64,000 nt of DNA from Opeltia flavorubescens. Lineage: Eukaryota; Ascomycota; Lecanoromycetes; Teloschistales; Teloschistaceae. The notes under the pieces are model-generated. The model was not told where the DNA came from. It made no database searches and saw nothing but the letters and a program-made list of their open reading frames with translations. Position numbers and translations under genes: made by a program. This document shows positions 25,634 through 63,324 of the stretch, in pieces (positions within the stretch are counted from its first letter, which is position 1; every line of letters starts with the position of its first letter). Location: contig KE546985.1 of the NCBI GenBank assembly GCA_000442125.1, forward strand, positions 248,001-312,000, written 5' to 3'.

Positions 25634-28137
25634 TCAAAAAAACTTTAAAAGGTTCAGTAACCTTATTTGCAAGATCTTCAAGTAGGAAACCGCTTGAGAT
25701 CGCTTAGCCTTAGGGCCGCTTAATATAACCACCTTCCCTTTATCAAGAATTACGACCAGGGCGGCATCAGCTTCGGTAAGTGCAATGTTATATATTGCCA
25801 GTACGACCGTTCGTCCTTTCACCAGCGGCCCTTTCAAGTATTTTGTGAAGATCCATGTAGCGGTGTTAGAATCTACGGCACTGAGACAGTCGTCAAGAAG
25901 GAGGTGGCCTGCGTTGGAATAGACGGCTCGAGCCAGAGTAAGACGCTGCTTTCGGCCTCCGGAAATGGATACACCGCGTTCGCCCACGCGCGTGAGGTCG
26001 CCTTTGCCTAGAGCTTTCGGGTCACGATCAAGTGCGCAAGCTTCTAAAACCGCCTTGTATCGTTTATCAACATAGGGACTGCTAAATAATATATTTTTAC
26101 GGATTGTGTCGTTCGTCAGCCAGGCCACCTGTATACAATAGGCGACACTGTTTATGAGTCTAGTTTTTGGGTCTGCCGGCAAGCTGTCACGGCCAACGGC
26201 GGCTGGCATGCATATACTACCCTGAACGAGCTCCATTTCGCCGAGGAGAGCTAGTAGCATGGACGATTTGCCACTGCCCGTAGGCCCTGTAATAACGTTC
26301 AATCTCCCGATAGCGAACTTGATGTCGACGTTTTCGAGTACAAAGCCGTAGATAGGACTGCCAGAGCCGCCTGCATTTACACTGCCGTTACTCTTATCCA
26401 TATCCTTTACCGCATTATCGCTCCATTTGAATGTTGCCTGTGTGAAACCAATATAGGGCGAGTCTCCAAGTTTATTCTACGAGAGTTGATAGTACTTATG
26501 CGTCTCTTGCTCCTATAGATAATTCTCGACGCGCCGAAGAGATGCTAGAGTTTCTTGAACCTAAGTTATCATGCCCACAAAGTTATCCAGAGGCATCTTC
26601 AAGAGGTTGAAAAAAAGGAAAGCGAGCCAAAGGCAAGCGAAGGTGTGAGTGACTTCCCGAGAATGACGGCGTACACGAAGGACGAGGAAAACGTGATGAG
26701 CAGCGGCATGCCGTGCCAAATGCTGGCCGCAATGGACCGCAAGATGTGTCTCGCCCGCAGGGTTCAGGGCTCTTTGGCGCGCTTGTCATGAATCTTCCGC
26801 TCGAAGAAGGATTCCCAGGCAAAGAATTTGATGATACGGATGCTTAGGACCGTTTCGGTGGTGCTCTGGATCCTGTGGTCCGAAGCCGCCATGACCTGCA
26901 TTTGGATTGCACCAAAACGCTGGGCGATGCGCGAATTGAGAGGGACAATGGCGGCCATCAGACCAACGCCGGCGATGATGCTGAAGCCCAAAGTCCGGTA
27001 GAGCAAAGTAATGGCGACAATTACCTGGACAGGGACAGAGCCTCAAACCTGGTGCGTAGTAGCGCCAGCATTGGCTATCTTGAACGCGTCTACCATTATA
27101 AGATTCAGAATTGCTCCGTCGTCGGCGAGAGGCGGTGGGGCGTCCTGGTCGTCCTGTTTTCGAGGCGCCGGAGCAATAGTGCGTCGTCTCAGCGCCTTTG
27201 CATATATCTTACTGACCATCACCGACCCCAGCCGGAAGCCGATCTTCTGGCCAAGCCAGATGGATCGGCTCTCGGCGACCGAAGAAAGAAGGCTGCATAG
27301 AAAGAGGAGGGTGACCAAAAGCGAGGCTTGCTTCGCCGACGCACTTGTGGGTTCCTCGACGTGCTCTAGGATAGACTGGAGAAGAATAATGGGGCTCAAG
27401 GAAAGGACGCCATGGATGGAGGCCCAGATTGCCTGGAGGAGGAGCACGCCACGGAAGGGATAGAGAAGACGCCACAAGAGGCTGGGACGCGTCTGTCCCA
27501 ACTGCTTGAAAGCTTCAGCATTGGGAGCAGCCGCGTCGGCGGGTGTTAGGCTAGGGATTTGGTCAAAGTCTAGTGCTTTGTAGCGCCATCCCATAAGTAG
27601 AAGCTTGTTCACCCAGGCAAAGCTTGACAGGCCAAGGGGACTAGAGTAGGATTCTCCGGTAGCATCGGGATACGCGGTATCGTCGTCTACAAGAGAGCTA
27701 GGCCAAAGCAAGGGAACAAGGAGGAGGACGGTTGCGGTGACAGTAAACTCGCCGTTGGAATGCGGCTGAGCGCTTTGCGTTTGCCCTTTCCGAACAGCCT
27801 GGACGTCGAGCAGCCAGCGGAGTGTGCAGAGGAGAGTAGAGTTTTGTCTGGCTGCGAGTTGCAGATGGGTGGAATTGGGCAACAGACCCAGGCCGAGCAG
27901 GAAGCGCAGGTAGAGGACCAGGAGAACGAGCCAGAAGCCAGGCTCGTCGAGGGATGAACCGGCCTTTAGGTTACGCAAGGCCATGGCAGCCGATGCGAGC
28001 AGCAAGACGCCCTCGAGGGTGAGGAGAATGCGACGCCGCAGAGACTTGAGTCGGAGGACATGCTCGAGGTCGGCAGCAATGGCAGGCGGCGTGCCGGCTT
28101 TGGGTACTGAGTGAGCGGCCTTCGGTGCCAGGAATTA
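25634..28137 (-). pseudogene. ABCC-type (multidrug-resistance-associated) ABC transporter, truncated pseudogene
   Basis: The frame reads from about 28,137 down to 25,634: an N-terminal membrane region, the first transmembrane domain, then the first nucleotide-binding domain. In the last 255 codons (start 26,401) the Walker A GPTGSGKSS is at residues 39-47, a degenerate signature SISGGRKQR at 145-153 and Walker B HLLLDD at 166-171. The usual switch histidine is Tyr at 204, as from CAC>TAC. In-frame stops lie at 27,043, 26,764, 26,561, 26,513 and 26,477. A run of seven A at 26,610-26,616 shifts the frame. Full ABCC proteins have two such halves; the second half is missing, cut by the AT-rich block near 25,640. 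It would have been a membrane exporter, perhaps for the nearby polyketide. Confidence 0.85.
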
Positions 28138-41121: not shown

Positions 41122-41562
41122 TTAGAAGAAGTCACATTCAATATATACCTCGGCAGCCAAAGCCTTATTAGCGATGCTTTCCGCCTGCGTAATAATACCC
41201 GCATTCGAATCCAGTAAGTCCAATATACTAATACTAGTCCCTAACGCCTGAAGAAACCAACTACGCAACTCGGCCGTAATCAGACTATCCACCCCCAACC
41301 TCGCCACCGGTTTACTCGAATCAATGCTCTCCACGTCAACGAATAGCATATCGGCTACCACCTTGACCATAGCTTTCTGGACGAACACCACTGTCCGTGC
41401 ACACGCGGAGACTCCTTCGCGGATAACAGCAGCGAATTCGCTGCGTAATGAGCGGCGCGGTCCTTGGGTCCCGCGTCTTGGGAGCCCTGCAAATGGCCAG
41501 ATTGCCGTTGTACGTCTAAGAAAGCGCGCATAATAAGTGAAACTCGTGCGTCGCTGTACCAT
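41122..41562 (-). pseudogene. PKS: acyl carrier protein, C-terminus
   Basis: The carrier motif LGVDSLI is intact, with the phosphopantetheine Ser at about 41,284-41,286, followed by the usual helical end (LLDSNAGIITQAESI). The frame stops at 41,122, which may be the natural end or lie a few residues past it. It is shifted relative to the KR frame by an indel near 41,520. Confidence 0.8.
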
Positions 41563-42320
41563 CGGGGTGCGTTCGCAGATGAGAGAGCTTCGTTTGCCAA
41601 GTCTTCACGCATTCTAGCCAATATGCGTGCTGGATCCAAGTAGGTACTGAGATTCGCGGCGGAAAGCTGTTGACCAGACCATTGTTCAGAATCCGCCTTA
41701 TCGGCGGTCTTGTTATTCAAGAACGCCGGTTCAAGGAGCGTCGAGAGTTGAGATTGGCCTATTGTCAATGCCTTGTTGCGCTCGAAAATATCGGCCGTAA
41801 TAGTATCTGTGGCAACCTTCGTAATTTCTTGGATTAGACTGAATGCGATTGTCGATGCAGGTAGACCCATCCCCTGGCGGTACCGTGCGAAGGCGTCCTG
41901 GAAATTATTGGCCGCGGTGTATGCGCCCTGGGTTGCAAAAGTATATACAGACAAGGCCAAAGTGGTCATGACAAAGAAGTCAAGAGGCATCGATAGAGTT
42001 GCCTCGTGCAGGTTTTTGGTCCCTGTTACCTTAGCTGACAGACTGTCATTCCATTACGAAGCCGAGAGTTTGTTGAATCACACGCATAACCTGATCTTTC
42101 TTGCTGACGTCGCAGATGAAGTTCTCGATATGTATGTTGCGGCTTGCAAGTGAATCGGTTAGCTTCTGGGACCCAGCGACGGTGGTGATGGGACGTCTAG
42201 AGAGACCGCGATCACCCATCCATCGAATCAAAGACTGTCCCAATCCACCCAGTGCTCCAGTGATAATATAGCAGTATTCGGCGCCGAACTGACCTGCTGA
42301 GGCTGAAGGTATCATGCTGA
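41563..42320 (-). pseudogene. PKS: ketoreductase, internally shortened
   Basis: The NADPH-binding start YIITGALGGLGQSLIRW (frame from 42,315) is intact. After ICDVSKKDQVMRVIQQ the frame breaks near 42,046 and picks up in another frame with WNDSLSAKV and SMPLDFFVMTT, so some tens of residues are missing from the middle. The later catalytic Tyr segment (GAYTAANNFQDAFARY) is present. The open frame 41,990-41,355 drifts out of register near 41,520. Confidence 0.8.
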
Positions 42321-42762
42321 TTAAACTCTCGGTATGTTCTCGAAGCTCGCAATAAGCTTGCTAATTATGTTCAAGAAATCGTTCAAAGTAGAGGATATTT
42401 GGGCGATATCAGGGGCTGTGACCTTTCTAATGGTCCCAATAAAATATTGGTGGTAATAGCTATCAACTGCCTGTATAGGTTCTTTACTAAGCATGGGATC
42501 CGAGTCGAAGATGGTAAAAGGATCGACCGAGTAATAGGAGGTATTCTTTTTGAGCAATCCTGAGCCCACTACAGGGGCGGCCTGCGATTCGACTCGGTCG
42601 ACGTTTATGAAATGGCCCAGAGGCGCCAGCACTTGGAAAGATAAGTGTACGAGTTCGCGTTCGGCAGTGCTTACGATAATATCAAACCTATTATTTCACG
42701 CCGATTATGCAGCCCGTCGGAGAGCGTTCGAGCTGGGTGCTGAGATGACTTGCGAAGATGGT
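42321..42762 (-). pseudogene. PKS: enoylreductase, C-terminal part
   Basis: Just inside the insertion site the sequence reads TIFASHLSTQLERS, an ER segment, then degrades. From 42,632 it is open again: APLGHFINVDRVESQAAP, LLKKNTSYYSVDPFTIFD and so on, the normal end of the ER. A stop falls before the KR. Confidence 0.8.
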
Positions 42763-42763
42763 A

Positions 42764-44859
42764 TCCCATCCCTGGTCATGGCATTAAAAAGCTTGGCGCT
42801 CTACTCCACCACCCCTCTATAGCGCGTCGCGATTTAGATAGTAAAAATATTCCCTAAACGCTTCTATACTACTATTACTACTGTATATATTTATTCGTTA
42901 TATCTAAACGTATTAGTAATTATATTAATTATATTTTTATCGAAAAACCTACTAAAAAATCTAAAAAGCTTTCGCTAGCGCTATAAAGGATATCCGTATT
43001 TAAGCCTATACGGATTTATAGTATACCTATATATAGTAAAAACTTTTTACTATTATATATTAGTAAAAATAATCTATATAGAATTTTTATACTCTTTTTT
43101 ACTAATAAAATTCTATCTATATTAACGAATAATACTTATTCTTTTATAGAATATAATCTAGGTTTTTTAATAAAATACGAGCGTTTATAAAAACCTACTA
43201 CCCCTTTTAAATTATAAGTCTATATCGCTAATTATATTTAGATAAGTATATATAATAAAATTATATTTAAAGATTTCTAAAATATAGATAAAAAAAAAGT
43301 TTTTATATATAGCTATTATAAATTATATAAATAAAACGCGTTAGTAATAAATCGACTATTATTTTTATATTTTTTTTCTACTTATTTCCCGCGTAAAAAA
43401 AACCTTATTTAATAAATTTTAATTATTAAACGATAAATTTTAAGCTTTATCTAAAAGATACTAGCGAATAAATATTTATTTAATTATTAATAAAACTATT
43501 TAATAGTTTATAGGCCGGATAAAAAAAATAATAAATATTTTTAATAAATTTTAACCGGAGGTTTTTAAAATATAGATACTAGTAAATAAAGAATAAATAC
43601 TAGATTAGCTCTATTATATAAAAGGTAGTAGCGAAAATAATAGTTTTATTAATCGAGATTAATTCTAAATTAATAATAAATATATAGGGTTTTTTAAAAT
43701 TTAAGCGGTTATTTTAAATCTAATTAGCTAAAAAAATATAAATAAAAAGAATATATATATTATTTAGCTAGATAATTTTTTTATATCGACCCGCTTACTT
43801 ATTATATTAAAAAAAAAAGACTTTAATACCGCTAGTATAGTATATATTTAAAAAAACTATTTAAAAGAAGATAAAAGGAATAAATTAATACTAAATTTTA
43901 GTACGTGTATAAAGAATTTAATAAAAGTTCTTACCGTTTACTAGCGGAGTTTAAGGTTAAATATAATATATAATTAGAATAGAGTTAATTATACGGTTTA
44001 CTTTTAAAGGATAAAAAAATATTTAAATTTATTTAAAAGGATTAAAATATAATATTAATTATAACTACTATATATTCTAGTATAGAAAAAGTAAATTATT
44101 TTTAATATTATCCGGTTGTAATAACTATAAATACGCGTATATCTAGGGTAGTATTTAAAGATAATATAATTAAATTATTTATTATTTTTTAATTTATTAA
44201 TTTTTATAACTATATTATAAATAGTTTAAATATTATAAACTAGTTACGCTTTTATTATTCTACTTAATAAATTTATATAAAGAACTAGAAGTTATTTTAG
44301 TACTTTTTATTAGATATAACTATTATTAATATTTATAAAATCGTTTATTATTCGCCGGAGCGCTTTTATAACGAGCTCTAGAGTTATTATATATATAAGA
44401 GCTTTAGGAAAAGTTTTACCGTAAGCCTATTCGCTAATTTAATATACCTAAATTAGAAGGAATCGCCTATATACGAACCGGAGTAGTATATAAAGCGGCG
44501 AGCTCGTATTTTAAATTACGGCTAGTTAATACGTATAGTAAAGAATAAATACTATATAGTTTATCGATATAAGCACTAAAAAGCTAAGAAATAGCGGATA
44601 CGAAAGGTATTAACGGATATCTTAGTCAATTTAATACTATCTAGCGGAAAGAGGCGCTAGCGAGCCCTCTACAACTTGTTTAAATGCGTACTATACGATA
44701 TAAACCTATATAATAACCTAATCTACTAGAATAGGCATCTAGATGAATGTAGATAGCTTTATTATTACCTAATTTAGATATATATAGGTAAAAAAAAACA
44801 CTATAGTAGTGCATGGAGAACGCCAAGCTTTTTAATGCCATGCCTGACCAGGGATGGGA
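42764..44859. mobile_element. 2.1 kb Tc1/mariner-type transposon inserted in the PKS ER domain, RIP-degraded
   Basis: Both ends carry long inverted repeats starting TCCCATCCCTGGTCA and continuing to AAAAAGCTTGGCG (about 40 bp), flanked by TA at 42,762-42,763 and 44,860-44,861. The PKS ER reads up to one side and resumes on the other, so this is a clean insertion with a TA duplication. The interior is AT-rich with no open frame, but the TIRs stay nearly unmutated. Length and TA target suit a pogo/Fot-like Tc1/mariner element with one transposase gene. The 93 bp element at 34,541 shares its termini. Confidence 0.85.
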
Positions 44860-44861
44860 TA

Positions 44862-45289
44862 ACCACCGCCTTGACGATAAGTCGGCTTGTTCGGGAGTTT
44901 CGACTATGGCAAGAACCTCAGCCTCCTTTGCTCTTGCCACGCGGATTGACGACAGCTCAATTGAATGAGCACCGACTGTTCTTCCTTGAGATGGGCAACG
45001 TAGTCAAAGACATAGATAGCGGTTGTGTATACCATTGATATAGAAGCCATTTGTATCATATTATCATCTGGCCGAAGCTTGCTCGCGAAGGCGGCTGGTA
45101 CGCGTGTATAGTTACTAAATTGGCCCCTACCCAGACTATATACGCGGTCACTGATCTTCAGACCGCCGACTCCGGTGCCTACCGCAGTGACCGTACCCGC
45201 GTACTCCGATGATAAGCTGTTCCCATCCAACTGGCCAGACCAGTGACCCAAATCACGCCAGTTCAAGCCGATAGCGGCGACCGCCACAT
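44862..45289 (-). pseudogene. PKS: enoylreductase, N-terminal part
   Basis: AAIGLNWRDLGHWSG, EYAGTVTAVGTGVGGLK and DRVYSLGRGQFSNYTRVPA are typical of the ER of fungal highly reducing PKS. The nucleotide-binding glycine motif after SVLIQ is broken by a frameshift near 44,940. The next frame continues ARAKEAEVLAIVETPEQAD, the following ER segment, and stops at the transposon insertion site TA at 44,860-44,861. Confidence 0.85.
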
Positions 45290-45879
45290 CTATAAAACAC
45301 GCAGGCAGTGGTTATAGAAGCGCCAAGATTTCAGCAAGCCGGACGTCTCGGGTGCTGCTCGCACAGCTCCTTGGCTGCCGCGTGGCAGCACTTTTGTCTT
45401 CGCGGTGTGACTGTTTATACTATACTGCGAGTTGAAGCCTGCATCAGGTATATAACGACCATCCCACATACAGCCAACTTGCGATGAAAAGTCCCGATCC
45501 GTAGGGTTGCCTTGTCCATTTTCCATGGGGATCTCTTGATGTAATATCTGGTCGACGATGCAGCGAGCAAGGTCTCTTGCGTCTTTATTTTCCAATTCAA
45601 GATTCTCAGCGTTAACGTCGATCGGCACGTACTGGCTCGCGGGATTCTCGTTTTGAAGGACATGGAGCAGGTCGGGAATTTTGGTGGTGCTACAGCTCGT
45701 GCCAACGACCAAGCTCGTCGTATTTCGTGCGAGGGCCTGAAATATATTCAAGTCTCGCTCGCTAGCGTGCGCCATTAGATTCTTCTCATCCAAAAGCGAT
45801 ACCACGTGTGACCTTGTGGTCACTGCATCGAAGACCTTGCGGTAGTGGACTACTTTGGCAGCCACTCCCCGTTGAATCA

Positions 45880-47003
45880 ACTCTAAAGAGCTGTATTTGA
45901 CAACAGTCGAAGCTGTTCTGGTGCCATGGAGCATATCCACAACGGTAGACTCGGACGGTTTTGTCACCTCCGGGAGAACGGTAGAAAGGACCACGGAGGT
46001 GGTATTGTGCGGTTCTAGAAAATCGTCTAACACCACGTCAAGCTCTGAGAAGCCAGCTTTTCTCAAGGACGAATCCCAGAAGTCCAGACGCTGAAAGGAT
46101 TCATCCATACGGCCGTCGGGAATGCCGGCCCAATACCCTATCAAGGTGCCCGCAACGGCCCCAGGCGCGGTAAAATTGCGAGTGGTTTCGACCAGGACAA
46201 GTCTACCTCCAGGCTTAAGCAGCTTCCGGTAATTTAATAAAGTTCTATATATATCGGAGGTGGCATGGAAAACCTGACATGCGAGGACAAGGTCGTAAGC
46301 TTGCCCGTATTCCTGCTCCAAGGGGTCGACCTCGGTGTCGAAAATAGAGAAGCTTATATCGCGCAGATCGGCCATAGATTCGCGGGCCGATGACAGAAAG
46401 CCAGGGAAAATGTCGGTAAAAGTATAGACGCGATAGTCTTTGATACCGTTAGGGCCATTCAAAGCCTTCATAGCGATACGAGTTGCACCACCGGTACCAC
46501 CACCAACCTCTAGGATACGGAGGTTGGGGTTTGAGTGGACAATCCCAGCCAGAAGGTGGAAGAGCTGAGGGTAAATCCCGGTCGTTAGAAGACCGGATTA
46601 GTAAAGGGGTGTCAGCAAGTCCTCGCCTATGAGGACGTCCATCTCTGTTCGCCATTGATAGAGCACGTCGGCCATATTATCGTGTAGAAGTTTCGCGATC
46701 TTGACCTCCGTTACATCGGATGCTTGATTGACGAGTTCCTCAATAGTGTGATGTAGGTGCCCCCGGCGGGCGAGCTTCCTACCCTCCCTCTTCCATCAAG
46801 TCCGAATGATCATTTTCACTATTCCTCTTGATCCAATCGAAGAAGTGGCGTACATCGCCCGAAGGCATAGGTCCATCTTACAGCTTCCCGAAGCTTTCGT
46901 ATAGACTAAGGACTACGAAGTGCGCGACTTTGTTGGTCATTGCCCACTGGGGCGACTTATCCGCGTTCTGTTCTGATGGAGGGTAAAGCTAACGAGCTTG
47001 ACG
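45880..47003 (-). pseudogene. PKS: C-methyltransferase region
   Basis: After two stops and a frameshift in a G run near 46,780, a helical stretch (EELVNQASDVTEVKIAKLL) leads to the canonical PKS methyltransferase SAM motif LRILEVGGGTGGATR near 46,490-46,530. TDIFPGFL, DLVLACQVFHAT and LKPGGRLVLVETT follow. A TAG near 46,600 and others interrupt it. From 46,471 to 45,290 the frame is open for 393 codons and covers the rest of the domain and the linker to the ER. Confidence 0.85.
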
Positions 47004-47435
47004 TCAGGTCAGGGTCCGCGTGTCCGGCTTCCGGACGAGGCGGCTGAAAGGACTACTGAAGGTTTTGTCGACAGGCCTGGCTTCGCTCGAACAGCTAATG
47101 CAACGGAAAGCATCGATCTTGAGTAGGATCTCGCTGTTGGGGCCCAGCGTTTGTAAGTCGAGGTAGGCAGCACTCACGCCGTGTCTTTCTCCTTGGGCGT
47201 GAAGGGTACCAGTGTCGCCGGCAATATCGTCCGCGAGATACATGCTGGAGAATTGGACTGGCACGAAGGCCGTGGTGGCCTGCGGTAGCAGTACCAGTTG
47301 GTGCATAGCCGCGTTGTTCGTGGGTCTCATTCTGGGACTTTCAACGACAGGATGATATCGTATTGCTTCTTCACCGTGCATACCATTCCCGTGTCCATTC
47401 ATAAGCCCATTGGTATGTTCATTCGTATGTCCATT
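47004..47435 (-). pseudogene. PKS: pre-AT linker fused to dehydratase C-terminus
   Basis: The frame of the KS continues past its TAG into QLVLLP, the usual segment just before the AT domain. It then passes directly, near 47,284, to a DH C-terminal segment (FVPVQFSSMY ... GTLHAQGERHG ... SEILLKIDAFRC). Everything between is missing without loss of frame, which removes the acyltransferase and the DH active-site half. The stretch ends at a stop at 47,004. Confidence 0.8.
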
Positions 47436-48010
47436 CTAATGTCCGTTAGTAACCTCATTCGGAGAACCATTCGACACGCCGTTGGTCTTGCTCTCGAAGA
47501 CACCAGGTACTATATAGTCCGGTAGCACGTTGTTGATATAGCCGATGATGCAGTATTTATTTGCCCTATTATATCCGAATGAGTTGATACTTGCTCGTTG
47601 CAGTCTATCCTCCGGCCAAGGAGTGACTTCTACTACTGGTTGGACCTTGGCACTTTCATAGTCGATATTTGGATTTCGTGTTTGCAAATCAAGGATAGGG
47701 GGTAGAAATCCCTTTTCAAGGGAAAGTACAACTTTTATTACAGATACCAGAGCACTGGAATCTTCATCATGCCCTACGTTGCTCTTCACAGAACTAACAA
47801 GCAGAGGATCCTCGGCGGATCTCTCCGAGGCGAACACCATCCCCACCGCCGCCACTTCAATTGGGTATCCGACGTATGTGCCTGTACCACGACATTCAAA
47901 ATAGCTCGTGTCGGAAAAGGGAAGATCGCCGGCATTCCGATAAGCTTCGCGGATCACTACTTTATGGCCTTTGGCGCTTGGTCGTTTAATACCATTTGTC
48001 CGGTATAGAA
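47436..48010 (-). pseudogene. PKS: ketosynthase C-terminal half and linker
   Basis: The frame starts around RTNGIKRPSAKGH and continues through FECRGTGT, where the catalytic HGTGT histidine is Arg, and VKSNVGH, with the second catalytic His kept. It ends with the usual NSFGY segment. The half with the active-site Cys is absent. A linker rich in Asn-Gly-His follows, with a TAG at 47,436 inside it and a short degenerate repeat of NGHTN type after it. Confidence 0.85.
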
Positions 48011-48482
48011 TACTCCATGCTTACCGCCGGCGAGAACACCGAGGATTTCTACAGACGTTGAATACAAAATCGTCTGTACCTGCTCAATCAGGCCGTCTAC
48101 GTTTTTTCCCAACTCCGGGTCTGCTTCACAAGCCTGCTGTAACAACAGTTCGATATCCCCGAATTTGCTGAAGTAAAAGTCCCTTTCCCGCTCGAGCCAA
48201 GTTACGGTTTCCTTCAGAGTGTTATTTTCTTGTATCACGGCTGTGGATGCTCCGCCCCCGGCCCATACGCCTCCAGCGCGACGAGCCGGTGCAATTATTG
48301 GGGTAGTCCCTCTCTTTGCAGCCCCTGCGCCTGATGTGCGAGTCGATGTCGTAGGTGCTGGGCCAGTTGCCGCAGGAGCGGACAGAGAAGATGAGGATGG
48401 AAATGGGGAGTGAGGATAAGTGGAGTGCGTGAGTGATAAGGGCAAGGAAGGGAGAAAGTGGCCGGGGGAGATGATCTGCTCT
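48005..48482 (-). pseudogene. EB1/Bim1/Mal3-family C-terminal fragment fused to the PKS remnant
   Basis: The frame carries a Ser/Pro/Ala-rich linker, then the EB1 dimerisation domain: LERERDFYFSKFGDIELLLQ, ACEADPEL, VDGLIEQVQTILYST. EB1 proteins bind microtubule plus ends, with an N-terminal CH domain and this C-terminal coiled coil that recruits partners. Here the CH domain is absent and the acidic tail is missing: right after ILYST the similarity ends and, within a few codons, PKS ketosynthase sequence begins in another frame. The conserved KLRDIE is KFGDIE. The frame is otherwise open. It is a displaced gene piece and not the functional single-copy EB1. Confidence 0.85.
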
Positions 48483-51059: not shown

Positions 51060-54000
51060 TATAATTAATACGATTCGTTTAATCTAGTATTATTATATTA
51101 ATAATATATTTATTTTAAATAATTTTAATAATTTATAATATAAACTTTATTTATATTTAAAAAGTAAAACTCGAATCTAGTTTTTAATATATTATAGTAA
51201 TTATTAAATACAAATTATTATAAATTTAACCAATTATATTATTATTATTTACAATTTCGTTTAATATTTATATTATAAGAAAAAGGCTCGCGAGAAAATA
51301 AAATTATTTACGATTTTTTTAAACCGGTATAATTAATATTGTAAAATTTTTTAAATTTCAATTTAGATTAATAATTTTTAATAATTAAACGATAATAATT
51401 ATAGTTTATTCTTTTTAATTTTCGTTTTTTATATTATTAGCGCTTATATTTTTCCCGTATAAGTCTATAATAGCTATTAGCGTTATTTATTGATATTATT
51501 TTTTTATCCAGACGAAGGCGATATAAACGTTCCCGAGATCGCTTTTAACAAGATAAATCTTGCGATATTTCTAATTCAAAATATACGTTTAGAAAATATC
51601 GATACTATTTATTATATCTATCAAAAATATTTTCAGCTATTTTATATAACCGACAATTATCTCCGATTAGTATAAAAATATTATAATATTTTACAAGCGG
51701 CTTCTAATATTATTTACCTCGAGCGGAAGTATATTCAAAAAAAGGAAACTTAATAAATTCGATATCGCGAGTTGCAAATCGCTTTATACCAGCGTTTTTT
51801 CAATATTTTACGTATTTCGGATATTTAATTCTTAGATACGGATATTTACAAGGCGATAAAACGAGGAAATAAAGCTATAATAATAGGATTGATCGATATA
51901 AAAAAAAAGCTGGATATTATAATAGCGAAGTTTAAAGGATAGAATTCTACGAGAAAAATATACGAAAAAAAATATAGAAAAATAATAAAAAGGAAGAATT
52001 ATATAAAAAAAAATTTAAAAAAATATATAAAGATTTTAAAAAAAATAAAAAAAATTCAAAAAAAAATTTTAAAAATAACGGAGATATTTTTATAGAGTAC
52101 GAAAAGGATAATAAAAAATAAAAAAAATAAAAAAAAGCGTAAATAGTTAGATAGATTTTAATATTAAATATAAAAATTTTATAATATTTTTATTATTATA
52201 TTATAGTTTAAATTTACTATAAAATTTTATATAATAAAATTTACTTTTATATATTATAATTATTTTATAAAATACCGTGGAAAATATATACCTCGGTATT
52301 ATTACCGGATTAGATCTAGCGCGTCTTGGTATTTTTATCGATTTTATAGTAATTTTATAAAAATTTAGTAATTAATTTATATATTACTAGATTTCTAAAT
52401 ATTATATATTTTTATTTATTTTTTTATATTATTATATTCGCGAATTTAAACGGCGCGAGAAATTTTTTTTTCGCTATTTTTTTTTTTTACTTTTTTTATT
52501 TTTTTTTCGCTTTTTATTTAATATTATTTTCTATATATATTTTTTTACCTATTATTTTTTTTTATAGCGATTTTTATTACTATTTATATTTCTTTTCTTT
52601 TTTTTATTAACCGCCGCTTTTTTTTTAATTTAAAAAATATATATTTTATATTTATTAATAATAAATAGTTTAATTAATTAATATAATATTAAAAATATTA
52701 ATATTATAAAAAATTAATATAATATTTAAAATATTAATATTTTAATTTTATAATTTATTTATATAATAAAGATTATAATTATTTATTAAAATAATAGTTA
52801 TATAATTCGAATTTTTTTTTATTTTTTAGCTATTATATAATTTTAAATATTTTTAATAGTAAAATAATTATAAATCGCTATTATAATTTATTTTAAACTT
52901 TTTTAATTTTAGAATTAAAAATAATCGATATAAAAAATTAAATTATTAGTAATAAATTATTAGAAATATAATAATATAATAATATTTATATAGATTTTAG
53001 CGCTTTTTAAATAGAATTCTAGCGAGAAAAATATTGTTTTTATATTTTAGAAGATAATTTACGCTAAAAAAAACCTATTTTATTAGAATTGAAAACGAAA
53101 AATATTTATTTATTAATAAAATTAAAAAAATAAATAATTAGATAAATTATTTTAATTTTATAATAATTATTATAAAATTAAAAATAAAATAAATAATTAA
53201 AATTTTATATTTATATAATAAAAGTTTTTTCAGTAATCGAAAGAAAATAAATATTTTAAATAGTAAATAGATTATTTAAAAAAATTATCTATTTAAATAT
53301 ATAATATTATTAATTTTAAAAATATTCGATATTTTTATATATATTTTATATTTATAAAATTTATATTTTATTTAAATAATTTCGATTTTAATATTTTAAT
53401 CAAAATTTTAATAAAAATATTTGAATTATATAAATAGATTATAATTAATAATTATTTTATAATTTATATAATTATAGTTTTAATAAAATAAAATATCAAA
53501 AAGTTTTTTATTATAATATCTATATAAAAATATTATATTATATTAAATATTTCAAATAAATTAAATAATAATTTATATTATAAAATAAATTTATCGTTTA
53601 AAAAAATATTAAATATTTAAAAATAATAAAACGCTAAATTTTATTAAAAGAAATATAATATTAATAATAATAAAAAAAGCGTGTAATATATTATATAATA
53701 ATTTTTAATAATATTTGAAAATCGATTATATTTGATTATTTATATTATTTATATATATATTTATAATTATATTAAAAATTATTTATTTTTTTATTAATTT
53801 TTATATATATATTTTCAATTTTTTTTAATATATATTTCTTATAAACTAATTTATAAAAACTATTTCAAATATATATATAAATTTTATCTATTTTATATAT
53901 AATCGTTTTTTTATACTATTTTTCTTATAGTTTTTAAACGGTATTTTTTTTTAAATTTGAAAAAATTATTTGAAAAACTATAATTCAATATTTTAACGAA

Positions 54001-57000
54001 AAAAATAAAAATTAAATTTTTATATTAATTAATATTAATAAAATTTAATTTAATTTAAATTCGAAAATTTTTTAAATTATAATAGTATTAAATTATACTA
54101 GTAAAAGTATAATCGATTTATAATAAAAAAAAAAATTTAAACGTCTATAAATTTTTATAAATTATTTTTTACTATTTATTAAATAAATATTATAAATAAT
54201 ATAGAAAATTATTTAAAAAATTCAATAAATAAATTAAATATTTTAGATTTTTAAAATTTATTATTTATTATTATCCGTTAAATTTCGTTTTATAATAAAA
54301 AACTTTTAATAATATTAATAATAAAAGTAGTATTATATTGATAAAAGTTTTAGAATCTAAATTAAAGTTTTATTAATATAATTTTTAATAAATTTTTTTT
54401 TAAAAAAATTAAAATAACTTATATTACTAAATTTTACTTATATAATTTTATATAAAATTCTTTTTTAAATAGATTGAAATAAAATAAATAATTATATTTT
54501 TATTTTTATATTAATTTTATTTTTTATTAAATAAATTTTAGATAAATTTTAATAAATTATCGATTTATAAATAAAATTTTTATTTATAAATATTTATTTT
54601 TAGTATTAAACTTCTATATAATTTAACAATTAAAATATAATTTTATATTAATTTATTAATTTATTTTAATTTTTTTGATTTAATATTAAATTAAGTTTTT
54701 TACTAATATAAAGATTTTTAAATATTTTTTTAATATTAAATATTATACGCGCCGGCGCTATATTATATAGAAGAGTTTTTTTTATATCTTTTAATAATAT
54801 TATATATAAAAGGAAAAGATTTAAATATTAAAGTAAATAATTAATAATAAAAATAATTAATATTATATTAAAAGGTTTATATTTATTAGAATATATTTTT
54901 ATTAAAAATATTAAAGGTTTTTTTTTTAATTATTAGATAATTTTAGTTTATTTATATAATAATATATTTTTTTTTTAAAATTAATATTTAAAATTATATA
55001 ATTTATTATAATTTTTAGAAATTATTATTATCGTTTTATTTTATATTTAAATTTTTTATAAAAAATATACGAGAATTATTAAAGATATTTGATATTATAA
55101 TTTGAAAATATTAGTTTAATAGATTTATTTAAATAAATATTAATATAAATAAAATAAAAAAAATTTATAATTAGCTCCAAATTTATTTTTTAATTTGAAT
55201 TTTAGTTTTTTTATAATAAAGAAATATATATTATTTATTTACTAGTTTGAAATATTATATTATATAAAAAATATAACGTTTTTTCTATTCTTATATAATT
55301 AAAAAATATTTATATATAGTTTATATTTATAATCGTTTTAGAAAAAAAAATTATTAATAATATTAATTAAAATATTAATATTAAAATTATATAAAATATT
55401 AATATTAAAATTATATAAAATAATAAACTTTATTTTTTTTTAAATACAATTTTTAATTGAATATTTTATATTTAAACTTTAATTATATATATTTAATAAA
55501 TAAAAATTATTAATTTATTATATTTTTTAATAATATATTTAAAAAAACTTTTTTTTCAATTTTATATATATATTTTAAAGTATTTATAATATTTAATACT
55601 TTTTTTATTATAAATATTTTATATATTATAAAAAGCCGTATATTTAATTTTTTATAAATATTTATTATATATAATTATAAAAACTTTTTATTTTTTTATA
55701 TATTTATAAATTTATTGATAAAATTAATATATTTAAATAGAAAAGATTTAAAATAAAAAATAATAATAAATTTAATAATAACGCGTTTTGAATTAATTTA
55801 AAAATAATTTTAATTTATTATTCGATATATTAAATTTATTAATTTCTAATAGTTTATTTGATTTTTAAACGGATATTATATAAAATTTAAAATAAATAAA
55901 TAAGTAAATAAATAAAATAATAGTAATATATTCGAGGTCGAAATTTAAATAATTGAATAAATTATAATTGTAAAATATAATATATTTTTTTACAGTAGAA
56001 TTATATTATATTATATTTTATAAAAACTTTTTTATTAAGTTTAATATAAATAAAAATTAAATAAACTCGAGAAAAAAAAATATTAAAAGCGTTTAATATA
56101 TTAATATATCGAAATTTAATTTTATAATTATTAGAAAAATTAAAATATTGAAAATATATCTAATAAAAAAAATATAACGTTTCAATTATATTTATAATTC
56201 GATATTTCGATTAAAAAAATAATTAAAACGGGATATTATTATTATTATCTATTAAAAATAATAAAAAAAGCGAAATTTTTAAAAATAAATAAAATTTATT
56301 TTTTATAATTTCCAATTTTAATTTATTTCCGGCTATTAAACTTTTATATTTTTTTAGAATTTTTTTATAAAATCCTTTAGTTTTATATATATTCTAATTT
56401 TTTTATTATTTCTTTTTATATTAATCGATTAGATATATATTTATAATATTAAATTAAATTTATTTTAATCAATCGATTTTAATTATAATTTACTTTTTAT
56501 TTTTTTTATTTTTTCTAATTTTATAAAAATTCCGTAAATTATTCTAAAATTTATTTTATTTTTATATCTATTCTTTTATTTATAACTCGAACGAGTTTTA
56601 ATATTAATTCGATAAATTTTTTATTTTAAATATATATTACTATTATCTCGATTTTAATTTATCGATAATCTATTCCGTTTAATTATAAATTCCGTTAATA
56701 TTTCTATAAAACGGATATTTAAATATAAAATAAATAAATTTATATATTAATTTCGATTACTAAAAAATAAATTATATTAAATAAATATTATAAAAAAAAA
56801 GTAAACGAACGATAAAATATTCGATAAATTTTATATCCGTCCGATTATAGAATAAAAAGCGATATAAAATTAAATTAAAAAAATAGTATTTTTAAAAAAA
56901 TAATAGAAATTAAAATAATAAATATAGATAAATTTTATATTAAATATAAATTTTATATATAATATAATTTATTTATTTAATAACTATTATAAAAATTTAA

Positions 57001-60000
57001 ATTAAATAAAATAGTTTTTATATTCTAGCTATAGTTTTATCTATAGCGATAAAATCTAGAATTATTTTAAAATATATCTAATATTAGCGTTAAACGTTCA
57101 AATATATTTATAAATTTATCTATTTTTATTTATATTATAATAATATTAGGATTATATAAATCTAAAAATAAATTGAATTATTAAAAAAAAAATATAGAAA
57201 TAATTATTGTTTATTTAAATTTAAAAACGAATTTTTAATAATATATACTAATTTTTTTACAATTAATAATTATCGATATATTATTTATTTTAGCGTAAAA
57301 TTTATAGATTAAAATTTAAATTATCGGGCTAAATTTTATTAAACCGTTCCGATAGTCGTTTTAATATAATTATTGTATATTTTTTAAATTTCTCGAGTTA
57401 TTATATACTATATATTTTTTATAACAAGCTTTATATTTATTTCTAATTCGAAAATCTACTATTTTAAAAATAAATATTTAAAAAAGCTAAAGTAAATATA
57501 TACTACTAGTTCTTTTTATTACTAAATTACTTTTATTTTATATTTTATATCGCTTTATTTTTTTTTATATAAATTTATATAAAAATAATATCAAATTTTT
57601 ATTATTTATAATATTATTTAATATAATAATTATAGATTTTTCTATTTATTTTAATAATATTTAATATAAAATCTATATTTTATTTTTAGATTAAAAAAAA
57701 TTCAATTAAAATTTATAATTTATTTATTTATATAATTTTAAATAAAAAAAAGTAATATAATAAAAAAATTAGATTGAATATTAGATTCAAATTTTACGAA
57801 AAACTTTTTTTAAAATTTTTATATTATTTATATAATAGAAAAATAAAATAATAATATTTATATTATTTAATTATTTTTTAATTCTATTTTTTTATTATTA
57901 TATTTTATAAACTTTTTATTATATTATTAAAATATATTTATAGCTAAACTTTTTATACTTTTTTTTTAAATTTTTAGTTTCGTTTATATTTAATACAACT
58001 TTTTTTTAATATTTTCTATTTTAAATTTTTTAATTCTTTATTTAATTTATTTTTTATTTAATTATAAATTGTTATAAAATATTTATATCTACTATTCTTT
58101 TCAAATTTTCCAGTTGAAATTATTAGTTTAAAATATATATATTAATTATTTATTGGTATAATATAAAATAATAATTTTATAACCGCGTTCCGATTTTATT
58201 TTTAATAAATATTAACTGGAATATATTATAATAAATAAATATAATAGATTTAATAACCGATTGAAAATTTAAAACTCTAAAATATTATTAATAATTAGTA
58301 AATTTTATTATTATAAACGAAATAAATTTTTTTTATTTATAATATCAATTCAATTTTTTCTTTATAGATTTTATATAACGGAAATTCTTTTATCGCTTCG
58401 CTATATTATTTAAAAAACTAGTAAAATAATAATATTAAAATTTTCGAATTAAAATTAATATTTTTAGATAATATTAATATAAAAATAATAAATTAAAATA
58501 TTATAATTTAAAATATAATAATTAGAAAATTATTATTATTAATTATTAGAATATCGAAATAATTTTTAATTTATTTTTAATTATTATATTAAACGTCGAT
58601 ATAAATAAAATTAAATATAATTATTAGATTTAAAATTTACTTTTTATCTAATAAAAATCTCTAGACTATTTTTAGAAGTAATAATAATAATAATATTCGA
58701 AAATAAATAAATAAATTTCTAGAAAAACTAAAAAATATCGAAAAAAAAATAACCGATAATATTTTAAATTAAATAAATATCCGCTAATTTTATATAAATA
58801 AAATAAAATTTAATTCAATTTTAAATTAAATAAACTAATATAATCTGAAAAATTAATATAAAATTATATTTCGATTTATAAATTATATAAAATATTATTA
58901 ATAATCTATATATTTATAAATAAATAATTTCTTTTCAAATATTTTTAGTTATTTTTTTATAAAAAGAAATAAATAAAAAAATTGATTATAATTAATATAT
59001 TAAATAGAAGCTATCAAAAAAAATATTTTATAAAAATTATACTAATATAATTTTATCTAAAATTCTAAAAATAATATCTATATAGTATATTTACTGCTAG
59101 ATATTTAAATATAAGCTTTTTATAATAAAAGAAAATCTAACTAACGCTAATATATTTTTAAATAAATAAATCTAAAATATTTAATTTATTTACTATATTT
59201 TTTAAACGAATTTATAATTTATTAATTTTTTCTATTAAATAAATAATAATAAATAGTTTATAAAAGTTTATAAATATTTACAGCGTAATTTATTTTATTT
59301 TCTATTATAAACTAATTGTATTTTTTACTAAAATATATCACCAAAAAATTATAAATAAGCTGAAGATTATTAATAAATTCTAATCTATTTTTTTATAATT
59401 TTTAAACCCTATCGCTAATTATTGAATATAAATATATATTAATAAATATATCGATATTATTAAATATTATTAGAGATTTAAATTAAAAATATAGAATATA
59501 TTAAAATAGGAACTTTTTAAATAGCCTACTAAAATAGACCTTATTATAGGATAAAAAATATAAAAATATCGAACTTTAATTTTTTAATATACAAGACTTT
59601 TTACAATATTTCTTATAATAGAAAAAAATACAAAAACTAAAAAATAGGAACTAGTTTAATATATTTTAGTAAATATCTATTAAAATTTTTTTTAAACTTT
59701 ATACGGAATTCTAAAAATTTATTAAATAAAAATTAATTATTTATTATATAATCTACTATAAAGTATTTAAATCTTTATTTTAGAATATTTCTATTCTATT
59801 TTAAATATAACTTAATTTAATTCCGGTAAATTTATATTATAATCTATTTTTTATATTTAAAAGCTTGTTATTTATATTATTATAAATTTTACCGAGAAAT
59901 AAAATTATATAATAATAACGACGTTTTTATTTAATTAAAAATAGCGATATAATTATATTATTAGTAGTAGTAAAATATAGAAAAAATTAAAAATAAATAT

Positions 60001-61268: not shown

Positions 61269-63324
61269 TCAACGATTCCCTTTCGACTTCTTGGAGTCTC
61301 TTGCTTCTTCGTATGTTTTCGGAGTGTAATTGATGAATTGCTGGTGCCCCGCAGAATTGGATTGGTACGCCTGAGGAGACGAATTTTGAGGCGAATGGGC
61401 GGACCACTGCTGCTGAGAATGAGGAGAGGATTGCTGTTGGGAGATAGATGAAGACTGCTGCTGTGACCGCTGCTGTGACTGCTGCTCTGACTGCGACGGA
61501 GATTGCTGTTGTCCGTAGGAGGTCGATTGGGATAGGTGGAGGTGGGATAGAGATGGAACCCCGAAGGAACCGGGATCGGGGAGTTGATTAATCGCTGATG
61601 TTATACGTCTCAGATGGAAGGGAGCAAAGACCTTGTAAACTGCAAGGGTAAAGTTGTGTGCAGTCCATTTATCCATTCCTTGCATGGTCCTAAAACTGAA
61701 CTCGTGTATTGGATGGCGATAGATGAGTGTGTCATTGCCATCGATTAACACGTAGTAGGCAGAAAGCACGATAAAGGCGTGATCATGAGACACCGAAAAG
61801 GAAAGGATGCGGCGGTGAAGTTCGTTTTCACGTTTTACCATTCGGTACAGATTTACCACAGCATTCGCCATCCATGCTCCGTTGTGCGCATTCTAGATAG
61901 TCAGCATGTTACAGAAGTACGCGAAAGCAAGTGGTAAAAGGGGAGCATTTACCTGCCGATCGGCAATCGCCAGAGACTGTTTGCCACACTTGACTTCATC
62001 GGCCAAGAATGGGAACAACATACTGTAAGTCGCCGTCATATGAGAGGTTGTCATTTGATCTCCTATAACTGGATGTAGTTTATGGAGCTGTGTGCCCGTG
62101 AATGCACGTCTCCCGAATCCGACAGCAAAATCTGGCTGCGGCCGAGGACCTTGGACCAGAGCGATTGCCATTTCCCAACATTCGTTGTCAGTTTGATACA
62201 GATTTTTTAGGTCATCATGACCGCGATGGTAATATTCTTCCGGCGAGGGAACAATTAGTCTCCCGATGTCTGAGATAACTCTGGCTTCGTTCCGGTGGGC
62301 GATGGATTCACAAGTTTGTTCAAAAAGCCGGTCCTGAAACAGGGAATCCTGAGGGACCGGATATCGTTGGTTGAGTAAGTGCTGGCATAGATCCTTGTCC
62401 TCCTGCACGATGCGAAATCCGGCATCTGATTGACCCATGAAGATGTTTGCTTCGGCAAGAGTCTCGACGTATCTTTCACTTGCAGCCTTGGGATTCTTGC
62501 CTTGTCGAAATGTGATGCCTGTGGCTCCAGTTTCGGCCTTGCTGACTTTTGACCTAGTTCGTCGGCCGATCTTCTGAGCTGCCCACAAAGACGACATTTG
62601 GTCAGACAAATGAAAATATTCTTTGGGCCAGGTACCGAAGTCAAGCCAGTGGTCGATGCCGCTCCCGCTCAGAGTGTCTGGCAGACTATGAAACAACTCA
62701 TATGGGAAATTTGATTGCACACAGTCTGTAGGTATAGAGTCGTCGTAATTCCACTGGTCAATTGAGAGAGAGTACTTGGGGTTTGGTAGGTCAATTGATC
62801 CAAGACTCGATGACTGTTTGGTAAGCGATGAGGGAGTGATCAAATTGGAGTAAGGCATTAGGAAATCATACCTTATCCTTTAGCTTTCTACTTGCTGAGG
62901 ATTCTCGAGGATGCTTGGATCCGCCAGCTGAGATGTCTTGGTGAGTATCTTGCTGGATACTCTGGTGGATATCTTGGTGAGTATTTTGGTGAGTATCTTG
63001 GTGAGTATCTTGGTGAGTGTATTGTTGGATGTCTTGGTGAGTATCTTGCCGGATACCTTGGTGGATGTCTTGGTGAGTAACTTGGTGAGTATCTTGGCGG
63101 ATGTCCTGGTGGATGTCCTGATGGATGTCCTGCTGAGTATGTTGACAGGTATCCTGGTAAGTGTCTTGGTGGGTATCCTGGTAAGTGTCTCGGTGGGTGT
63201 CTTGGTGGGTGTCTTGGTGGGTGTCCTGGTAGATATCTTGGTGGATGTTGTGGTGGATGGTGTGTTGGTGTAGGATGAGTGAGGATCGCTTTCGCTTCAG
63301 GCTTTGAGGTTCGACTGATGGCAT
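61269..63324 (-). CDS. DUF7924-domain protein, three exons, intact
   Basis: Exons are 63,324-62,872, 62,813-61,953 and 61,892-61,269, giving about 645 residues with no stop. Intron 1 (62,871-62,814, 58 nt) has GTATGA, branch CTTAC and CAG; intron 2 (61,952-61,893, 60 nt) has GTAAAT, branch GCTGAC and TAG. Residues 28-131 are a tetrapeptide repeat of HQDT/HQDI type. The fungal DUF7924 domain covers about 270-540: EANIFMGQSDAGFRIVQEDK, NEARVISDIGRLIVPS, GPRPQPDFAVGFG, FPFLADEVKCG, IADRQN, SHDH and YRHPIHEFSF. PD at 378-379, ExK at 424-426 and a following DRQ resemble a PD-(D/E)XK nuclease site, which is my inference. The C-terminus (about 559-625) is Gln/Ser-rich. The start ATG is followed by a basic KRKR, possibly nuclear. 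Function is unknown. Confidence 0.85.
62932..63243. repeat. 12 bp coding minisatellite in the DUF7924 gene
   Basis: About 26 tandem 12 bp units, on the plus strand variants of TTGGTGAGTATC, encode on the minus strand (H/Y/Q/R)QD(T/I) tetrapeptides. All units keep the frame. Unit-to-unit differences are single-base. Such arrays change length easily by slippage, so alleles probably differ between strains. Confidence 0.9.

Follow-up and report, generated by a model that had tools for sequence, protein, structure and literature searches.

The SPOK spore-killer proteins of fungi, those of Podospora and the FuSpoks, are described as nuclear and as enriched on accessory chromosomes, and their PD-(D/E)XK domain carries a QxxxY motif. 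They have three domains, one of them a resistance kinase domain, and PMC6660238 places the PD-(D/E)XK motif at residues 219-240 and QxxxY at 294-298. Spok is reported to disrupt DNA in Escherichia coli and to cause DNA-damage responses in yeast (PMC9972908). Two further families offer comparisons. VRR-NUC (PF08774) presents a PD, an ExK and then a Q, and PDDEXK_12 (PF20516), which Pfam names as a PD-(D/E)XK family, has a conserved D and ExK. For a fourth family, DUF7924 (PF25545), Pfam gives no function. Here we describe a DUF7924 gene in a 64,000-nucleotide stretch of the Opeltia flavorubescens genome (contig KE546985.1, positions 248,001 to 312,000; C21:248001-312000 in our contig numbering). 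This stretch is called the window, and coordinates are those of the window unless a contig is named.

Within the open-licence PubMed Central (PMC) literature DUF7924 was found only in a Neurospora crassa pangenome study (PMC13412767), the available part of which does not mention a nuclease, and no mention of PF20516 or PDDEXK12 was found. An earlier note on this DNA, written from the sequence without database searches, had assigned the gene to DUF7924 and had pointed out nuclease-like residues. The family assignment was borne out: the 645-residue protein matches PF25545 with an expectation value (E) of 7.8e-81 and 271.4 bits against a gathering cut-off of 27, over profile positions 2-225 of 225, and differs in nothing from that family. 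The domain covers residues 315-539 (61590..62324, minus strand; hmmscan) and is split by the second intron. We consider it probable that the gene product is a nuclear protein with a catalytic PD-(D/E)XK, or restriction-endonuclease-like, domain. DUF7924 would then probably be a new family of this known superfamily, and a Pfam family without a function would acquire a biochemical identity that can be tested, with specific residues to go with it.

Are the residues read from this one protein kept across its family? We aligned 20 of the 24 DUF7924 loci of this genome and ranked the 258 columns by Jensen-Shannon divergence. The loci left out were broken or partial (L021, L026, L030, which is the same place as L005, and L031), and two of the aligned rows, L014 and L022, are partial, L022 being without the motif II stretch. 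The ranks, out of 258, are 1 for Q438, 3 for P378, 4 for G383, 5 for D379, 10 for E424, 11 for E327 and 14 for K426. On the minus strand of the window, motif II is P378-D379 (62130..62135), with the D present in all 19 rows that cover it. Motif III is E424-V-K426 (61989..61997), with E or D in 18/20 rows and K in 16/20, and motif IV is Q438 (61953..61955), a Q in 19/20. The candidate for motif I is E327 (62286..62288), an E or D in 18 of the 20. Motifs II and III, PD...(D/E)xK, are both conserved in the family. The earlier note had asked whether D379, E424, K426 and Q438 are invariant; all four stand within the best 14 columns, and as the counts show not all are invariant. The random chance of four columns all falling there is 5.6e-6, a figure to be read with the caveat that the reader who picked the residues had already identified the family and might have been aware of where it is conserved. 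As judged from this alignment, the motif layout of DUF7924 is that of PD-(D/E)XK nucleases.

The spacing fits expectation at one end of the signature and departs from it at the other. From the K of motif III to the Q of motif IV the distance is 12 residues in 17/20 members (11 or 14 in the other three), close to the 10 of FAN1 and the 10-11 of six phage or plasmid VRR-NUC proteins. From the D of motif II to the E of motif III it is 45 residues in the window protein and, over the 19 rows with a D at this position, ranges from 37 to 67, compared with 15 in the VRR-NUC domain of this genome's FAN1, so that an insertion between motifs II and III is needed. The spacing that the earlier note had called expected thus holds for motifs III-IV, and for II-III only with that insertion. 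The SPOK spacing is unlike that of DUF7924.

Motifs II-IV are complete in 14/20 members, the window protein included. The other 6/20 lack the complete set, which counts against a uniformly catalytic family and means that catalysis is perhaps not its sole function. One could therefore suppose that DUF7924 has the PD-(D/E)XK fold and is mainly non-catalytic, a nuclear DNA-binding or scaffold protein in which the motif residues are kept for binding metal or DNA. L018 and L019 would fit such a protein, being both without the motif III lysine and yet under constraint: the proportion of nonsynonymous differences (pN) is lower than that of synonymous differences (pS) in 7/7 paralogue pairs, 0.26 against 0.75 for L018/L019, with synonymous sites saturated in all. 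Speaking against it, the D, E or D, K and Q are kept together in most members, the K-Q distance is nearly fixed, and a nearby arginine may compensate for the lost lysine. L018, L019 and L029 carry an arginine three residues past motif IV, and L022 has one at the lysine position. In the superfamily the motif III lysine may be relocated to motif IV, where it is often an arginine (PMC1913061). Loss of the lysine in these four members need not, then, be a loss of activity. The arginine past motif IV occurs in most other divergent members also, so it is not specific to those lacking the lysine. We regard a mainly non-catalytic protein as unlikely, though deserving some weight.

Whether the domain has the PD-(D/E)XK fold was approached by searches, profile comparisons and modelling. 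Direct searches weigh against the fold: with hmmscan no Pfam PD-(D/E)XK family, PDDEXK_12 and VRR-NUC included, was matched by any of the 20 members at E up to 1, and a search of the PDB gave no credible match to any solved structure. Cullin-1 (E 0.096) and Cid1 (E 0.29) were hit there by stretches located before motifs II-IV, and both hits were set aside as chance. New PD-(D/E)XK families have mostly been missed by standard searches (PMC1913061). A homing-endonuclease model of PADLOC is matched by 2/20 members, at best E 0.012 in the window protein across motifs III and IV, and its Cas8b model by one member at 0.015; both are too weak to count either way. As a possible bridge, lambda exonuclease gave nothing in a single-sequence comparison, and the 80 viral relatives kept, at 98-99% identity, were of no use as a profile. 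A relative usable for modelling was found neither in viral contigs or prokaryote genomes, both searched with a few peptide patterns, nor in plasmids (tblastn).

In profile alignments against PDDEXK_12, all three DUF7924 profiles set the D on the D and the ExK on the ExK, whatever their score. The scores themselves depend on the alignment. With the first alignment, the clade of the window protein beat 100/100 shuffles and the whole family 99/100, the latter at a weak E of 0.14; the profile of six divergent members beat 67/100 and, its score being reached by 33/100, gave no link. After realignment the four-member window clade still stood out (z 5.5, 0/30 shuffles, over 32 columns around motif II). 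The whole family fell to z 0.7, and sixteen divergent members reached z 0.4, each with 7/30 shuffles reaching the score, so that it is only for the window clade that PDDEXK_12 scores well above shuffles. The unrelated control HET reached z 2.7 against this clade (0/30 shuffles), and a z near 3 is for that reason not strong.

The VRR-NUC profile is small, made of this genome's FAN1 and six phage or plasmid proteins. Its best hit with the whole family falls exactly on motif III and keeps register across 16 columns, with z 3.2 and a score narrowly above all of 40 shuffles (16.0 against a maximum of 15.5). The divergent members were also in register (z 2.0, 2/40 shuffles); the window clade scored z 3.1 but out of register, a further point against the link. 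As controls PDDEXK_12 gave z 1.3 (5/40) and HET z 0.6 (12/40), and since PDDEXK_12 itself attains no more than this against VRR-NUC, the method is insensitive at this depth. Taken as a whole, the profile comparisons lend the PD-(D/E)XK link weak support that varies with the alignment and is partly in register.

Structural indications are mixed. AlphaFold2 on the single sequence (281 residues, with intron 2 read through as 20 extra residues) gave a mean predicted local distance difference test (pLDDT) of 36.1 and a predicted template modelling score (pTM) of 0.23, too poor for a fold search. At this low confidence the model places motifs II and III in helices instead of strands, which is unfavourable to the fold. 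When hydrophobic moments are averaged, the segments around E327 and Q438 lean towards helix and those at PD, ExK, FS and VHW towards strand, in a rough test that used textbook scales and segments picked from the motifs and in which the per-residue labels were mixed. It is this periodicity that suggests core helices for E327 and Q438, and it did not reveal the first core strand.

These points bear on a further explanation, a different alpha/beta fold whose conserved D, ExK and Q only resemble the nuclease signature. Such a fold would account for the lack of a robust sequence or profile link to a known PD-(D/E)XK family or solved structure, for the unusual distance between motifs II and III, and for the unusable AlphaFold2 model. 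It accounts less well for signature positions and a motif I acid that lie within the 14 best-conserved columns and in the right order, for the hydrophobic run ahead of ExK, or for the helix-like periodicity around the Q. We therefore think a different fold decidedly improbable, and the PD-(D/E)XK fold likely from the motifs.

The two low-complexity ends of the protein point to the nucleus. HQDT repeats and a KRKR cluster (residue 10; 63286-63297, minus strand, in exon 1) stand in front of the domain, and a Gln/Ser-rich stretch and a KKSK cluster (residue 639; 61281-61292, minus strand, in exon 3) stand behind it. K[KR]x[KR] is a nuclear-localisation consensus. A cluster of this form lies outside the domain in 16/20 members, against 4.7 +/- 1.8 in shuffled tails (maximum 10 in 1000), where N-terminal tails were taken from stop to stop and some of their residues may be untranslated. 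Inside the domain it occurs in 5/20 members. By this motif the DUF7924 protein is probably nuclear, and the clusters fit a DNA-acting factor. That part of the earlier note, a nuclease or DNA-acting protein, gains from the residue conservation, the motif I acid and these clusters, and gains little from the profiles.

From these features we infer a nuclease of the PD-(D/E)XK fold that would act in the nucleus on DNA. In the mechanism we propose, the active site of a metal-dependent phosphodiesterase would consist of E327 (motif I), D379 (II), E424 and K426 (III) and Q438 (IV), with the carboxylates binding metal ions, the lysine positioning the attacking water and the glutamine helping to hold the substrate. 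The low-complexity ends with KRKR and KKSK would bring the protein into the nucleus, and the substrate would presumably be DNA. By analogy with Spok and FuSpok, nucleases found in accessory regions of fungi, the likeliest role for such an enzyme would be in conflict between genetic elements.

The distribution of the family in the genome (34.4 Mb in 23 contigs) bears on this role. The search with PF25545 gave 26 matches, which reduce to 24 loci when the two exons of the window gene and the pieces at C21:395660/396230 are merged; the count is a lower bound, as are those of the other families given below, and a fragment on C19 found by protein search only (L007) is not in it. Contigs C18, C19 and C21 hold six, seven and four loci respectively, that is 17/24 on three contigs that make up 6.8% of the genome (2.34 Mb; binomial P 3e-15), a grouping made after the counts had been seen and with C20 excluded after its five kinase matches. 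With C20 included, the same 17 loci lie on 9.0% of the genome (P 3e-13). The same three contigs hold 7/9 PDDEXK_12 loci (P 2e-7), 0/88 HET matches and 1/135 protein-kinase matches (126 of 205 candidates scored), the HET and kinase counts being of matches and not of genes. The fungal-type kinase PF17667 has four weak matches in the genome and none on C18, C19 or C21. C20, of similar size, has the five kinase matches (read as three genes), one HET match, one PDDEXK_12 locus and no DUF7924 match, so that contig size alone is not the cause of the concentration. Of the seven DUF7924 loci on other contigs, four are no more than 120 kb away from the end of their contig. The window gene is an exception within the pattern: in its clade (support 100/99 in a family tree of 19 rows, without L022) the other three members, all open-framed, lie on the core-like contigs C10, C11 and C15, and a broken relative, with 62% identity over 169 residues, is found on C9. 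C18, C19 and C21 are possibly dispensable, and are candidates for accessory chromosomes or accessory regions. The concentration of DUF7924 on such accessory-like contigs is unexpected and new.

Two places on these contigs may be mentioned for their own sake. At C19:47137-107390 three DUF7924 and two PDDEXK_12 loci lie in about 60 kb, a cluster of two nuclease-like families. Between two DUF7924 genes on C21, an open reading frame (ORF) at C21:392670-393377 (L151 3670-4377) contains LPFLVIEVAHW...ITKW and by eye looks like a further protein of nuclease-like fold.

An explanation compatible with catalysis sees in the DUF7924 genes either selfish killers or genes for the maintenance of accessory chromosomes, similar to FuSpok, with active-site-altered paralogues as possible antidotes. 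The concentration of DUF7924 and PDDEXK_12 loci on C18, C19 and C21 suits it. So do reports that relatives of Spok show enrichment on the accessory chromosomes of Fusarium in 16/24 genomes tested (PMC12693581) and that Spok3 killing requires the motif lysine (PMC6660238), and so does the N. crassa pangenome study (PMC13412767), which lists DUF7924 with its most overdispersed families. Set against this, no other Pfam domain than DUF7924, kinase included, was found in the window protein at E up to 1, and 7/24 loci lie on other contigs. We rate a killer or maintenance role as a rather unlikely account. DUF7924 perhaps acts like a Spok nuclease, and is not itself Spok, having no detected kinase domain and another motif spacing. 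If the activity is real, DUF7924 would be a second nuclease-type family besides Spok tied to accessory-like chromosomes, and would bear on their persistence.

A more specific version, which we offer as a speculation and would back with little confidence, is that DUF7924 serves the accessory chromosomes: intact members would cut the DNA of nuclei lacking the chromosome, or of rival elements, and altered members would restrain them. DUF7924 would then be a counterpart of Spok without a kinase and, together with PDDEXK_12, would make of C18, C19 and C21 a nuclease-rich selfish compartment.

Could the gene instead be a transposon-derived or transposon-encoded nuclease? Its many copies and the sequence affected by repeat-induced point mutation (RIP) nearby might suggest so. 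Yet all 19 aligned paralogues are at most 46% identical to the window domain (46, 39 and 38% in the three closest; the sixteen others share 12-17%), and the synonymous saturation of all seven pairs compared speaks likewise against it. The window gene itself is not RIP-affected, its span having 48.5% guanine plus cytosine (GC) and a composite RIP index of -0.75. The DUF3435 recombinase, sought with the idea of Starship cargo in mind, had no match in the genome, in a search that matched no control either and so does not show its absence. A transposon origin we hold to be very improbable. On the sequence comparisons, the DUF7924 copies are old, strongly diverged and kept, an age as expected under RIP.

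The gene is real and intact, and on our gene model the coordinates, strand, intactness and residue numbers first given for it are all correct. Its coding sequence runs from 63324 to 61269 on the minus strand in three exons, with 645 codons and no internal stop, the exons being joined on the evidence of reading frames and splice sites. Exon 1 (62872..63324) begins with the start codon and encodes residues 1-151 in an open frame that ends at a GT donor. Intron 1 (62814..62871) has 58 bp and intron 2 (61893..61952) has 60 bp, both of them GT-AG. Exon 2 (61953..62813) encodes residues 152-438, including motifs I, II and III, and its last codon is the motif IV glutamine. Intron 2 follows directly after this codon and contains one in-frame TAG. 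Its splicing is supported by the paralogue L002, open and stop-free, which reads ADRQNAHS uninterrupted at that place. Exon 3 (61269..61892) encodes residues 439-645 and the stop.

Within exon 1 lies a minisatellite coding for HQDT and HQDI on the minus strand (62936..63259), with a 12/48-bp unit. Tandem Repeats Finder counts 25.8 copies of 12 bp (62936-63244) or 6.8 copies of 48 bp (62936-63259). Over 25 units the variants number 6/16/34 at codon positions 1/2/3, and their preference for third positions suggests that the repeat is translated in the exon 1 frame. Its length is likely to vary between strains, and the His/Asp-rich product might bind metal, both being guesses.

As the earlier note had stated, the gene lies beside a RIP block. 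This AT-rich, RIP-like block extends over 52001..60000, with 7-11% GC in 2-kb steps and a composite RIP index of +0.68 to +0.79, and the composition shifts between 60 and 61 kb. Such RIP-like AT blocks, together with the 88 HET matches of the genome, suggest a filamentous ascomycete. The survey of the window covered ORFs of at least 180 residues. Of the 11 found, three belong to or overlap the DUF7924 gene. Of the other eight, four are fragments that match an ATP-binding cassette (ABC) transporter or polyketide synthase domains, and four are without a Pfam match. On the minus strand at 25634-28134, at the edge of an AT-rich block, there is an ABC transporter nucleotide-binding fragment (PF00005, E 3e-16); a neighbouring frame that resembles a membrane protein has no Pfam match. 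A polyketide synthase is represented by interrupted pieces (the C-terminal part of a ketoacyl synthase, a methyltransferase and a ketoreductase) at 41355-48020, also on the minus strand, apparently what is left of a decayed biosynthetic gene.
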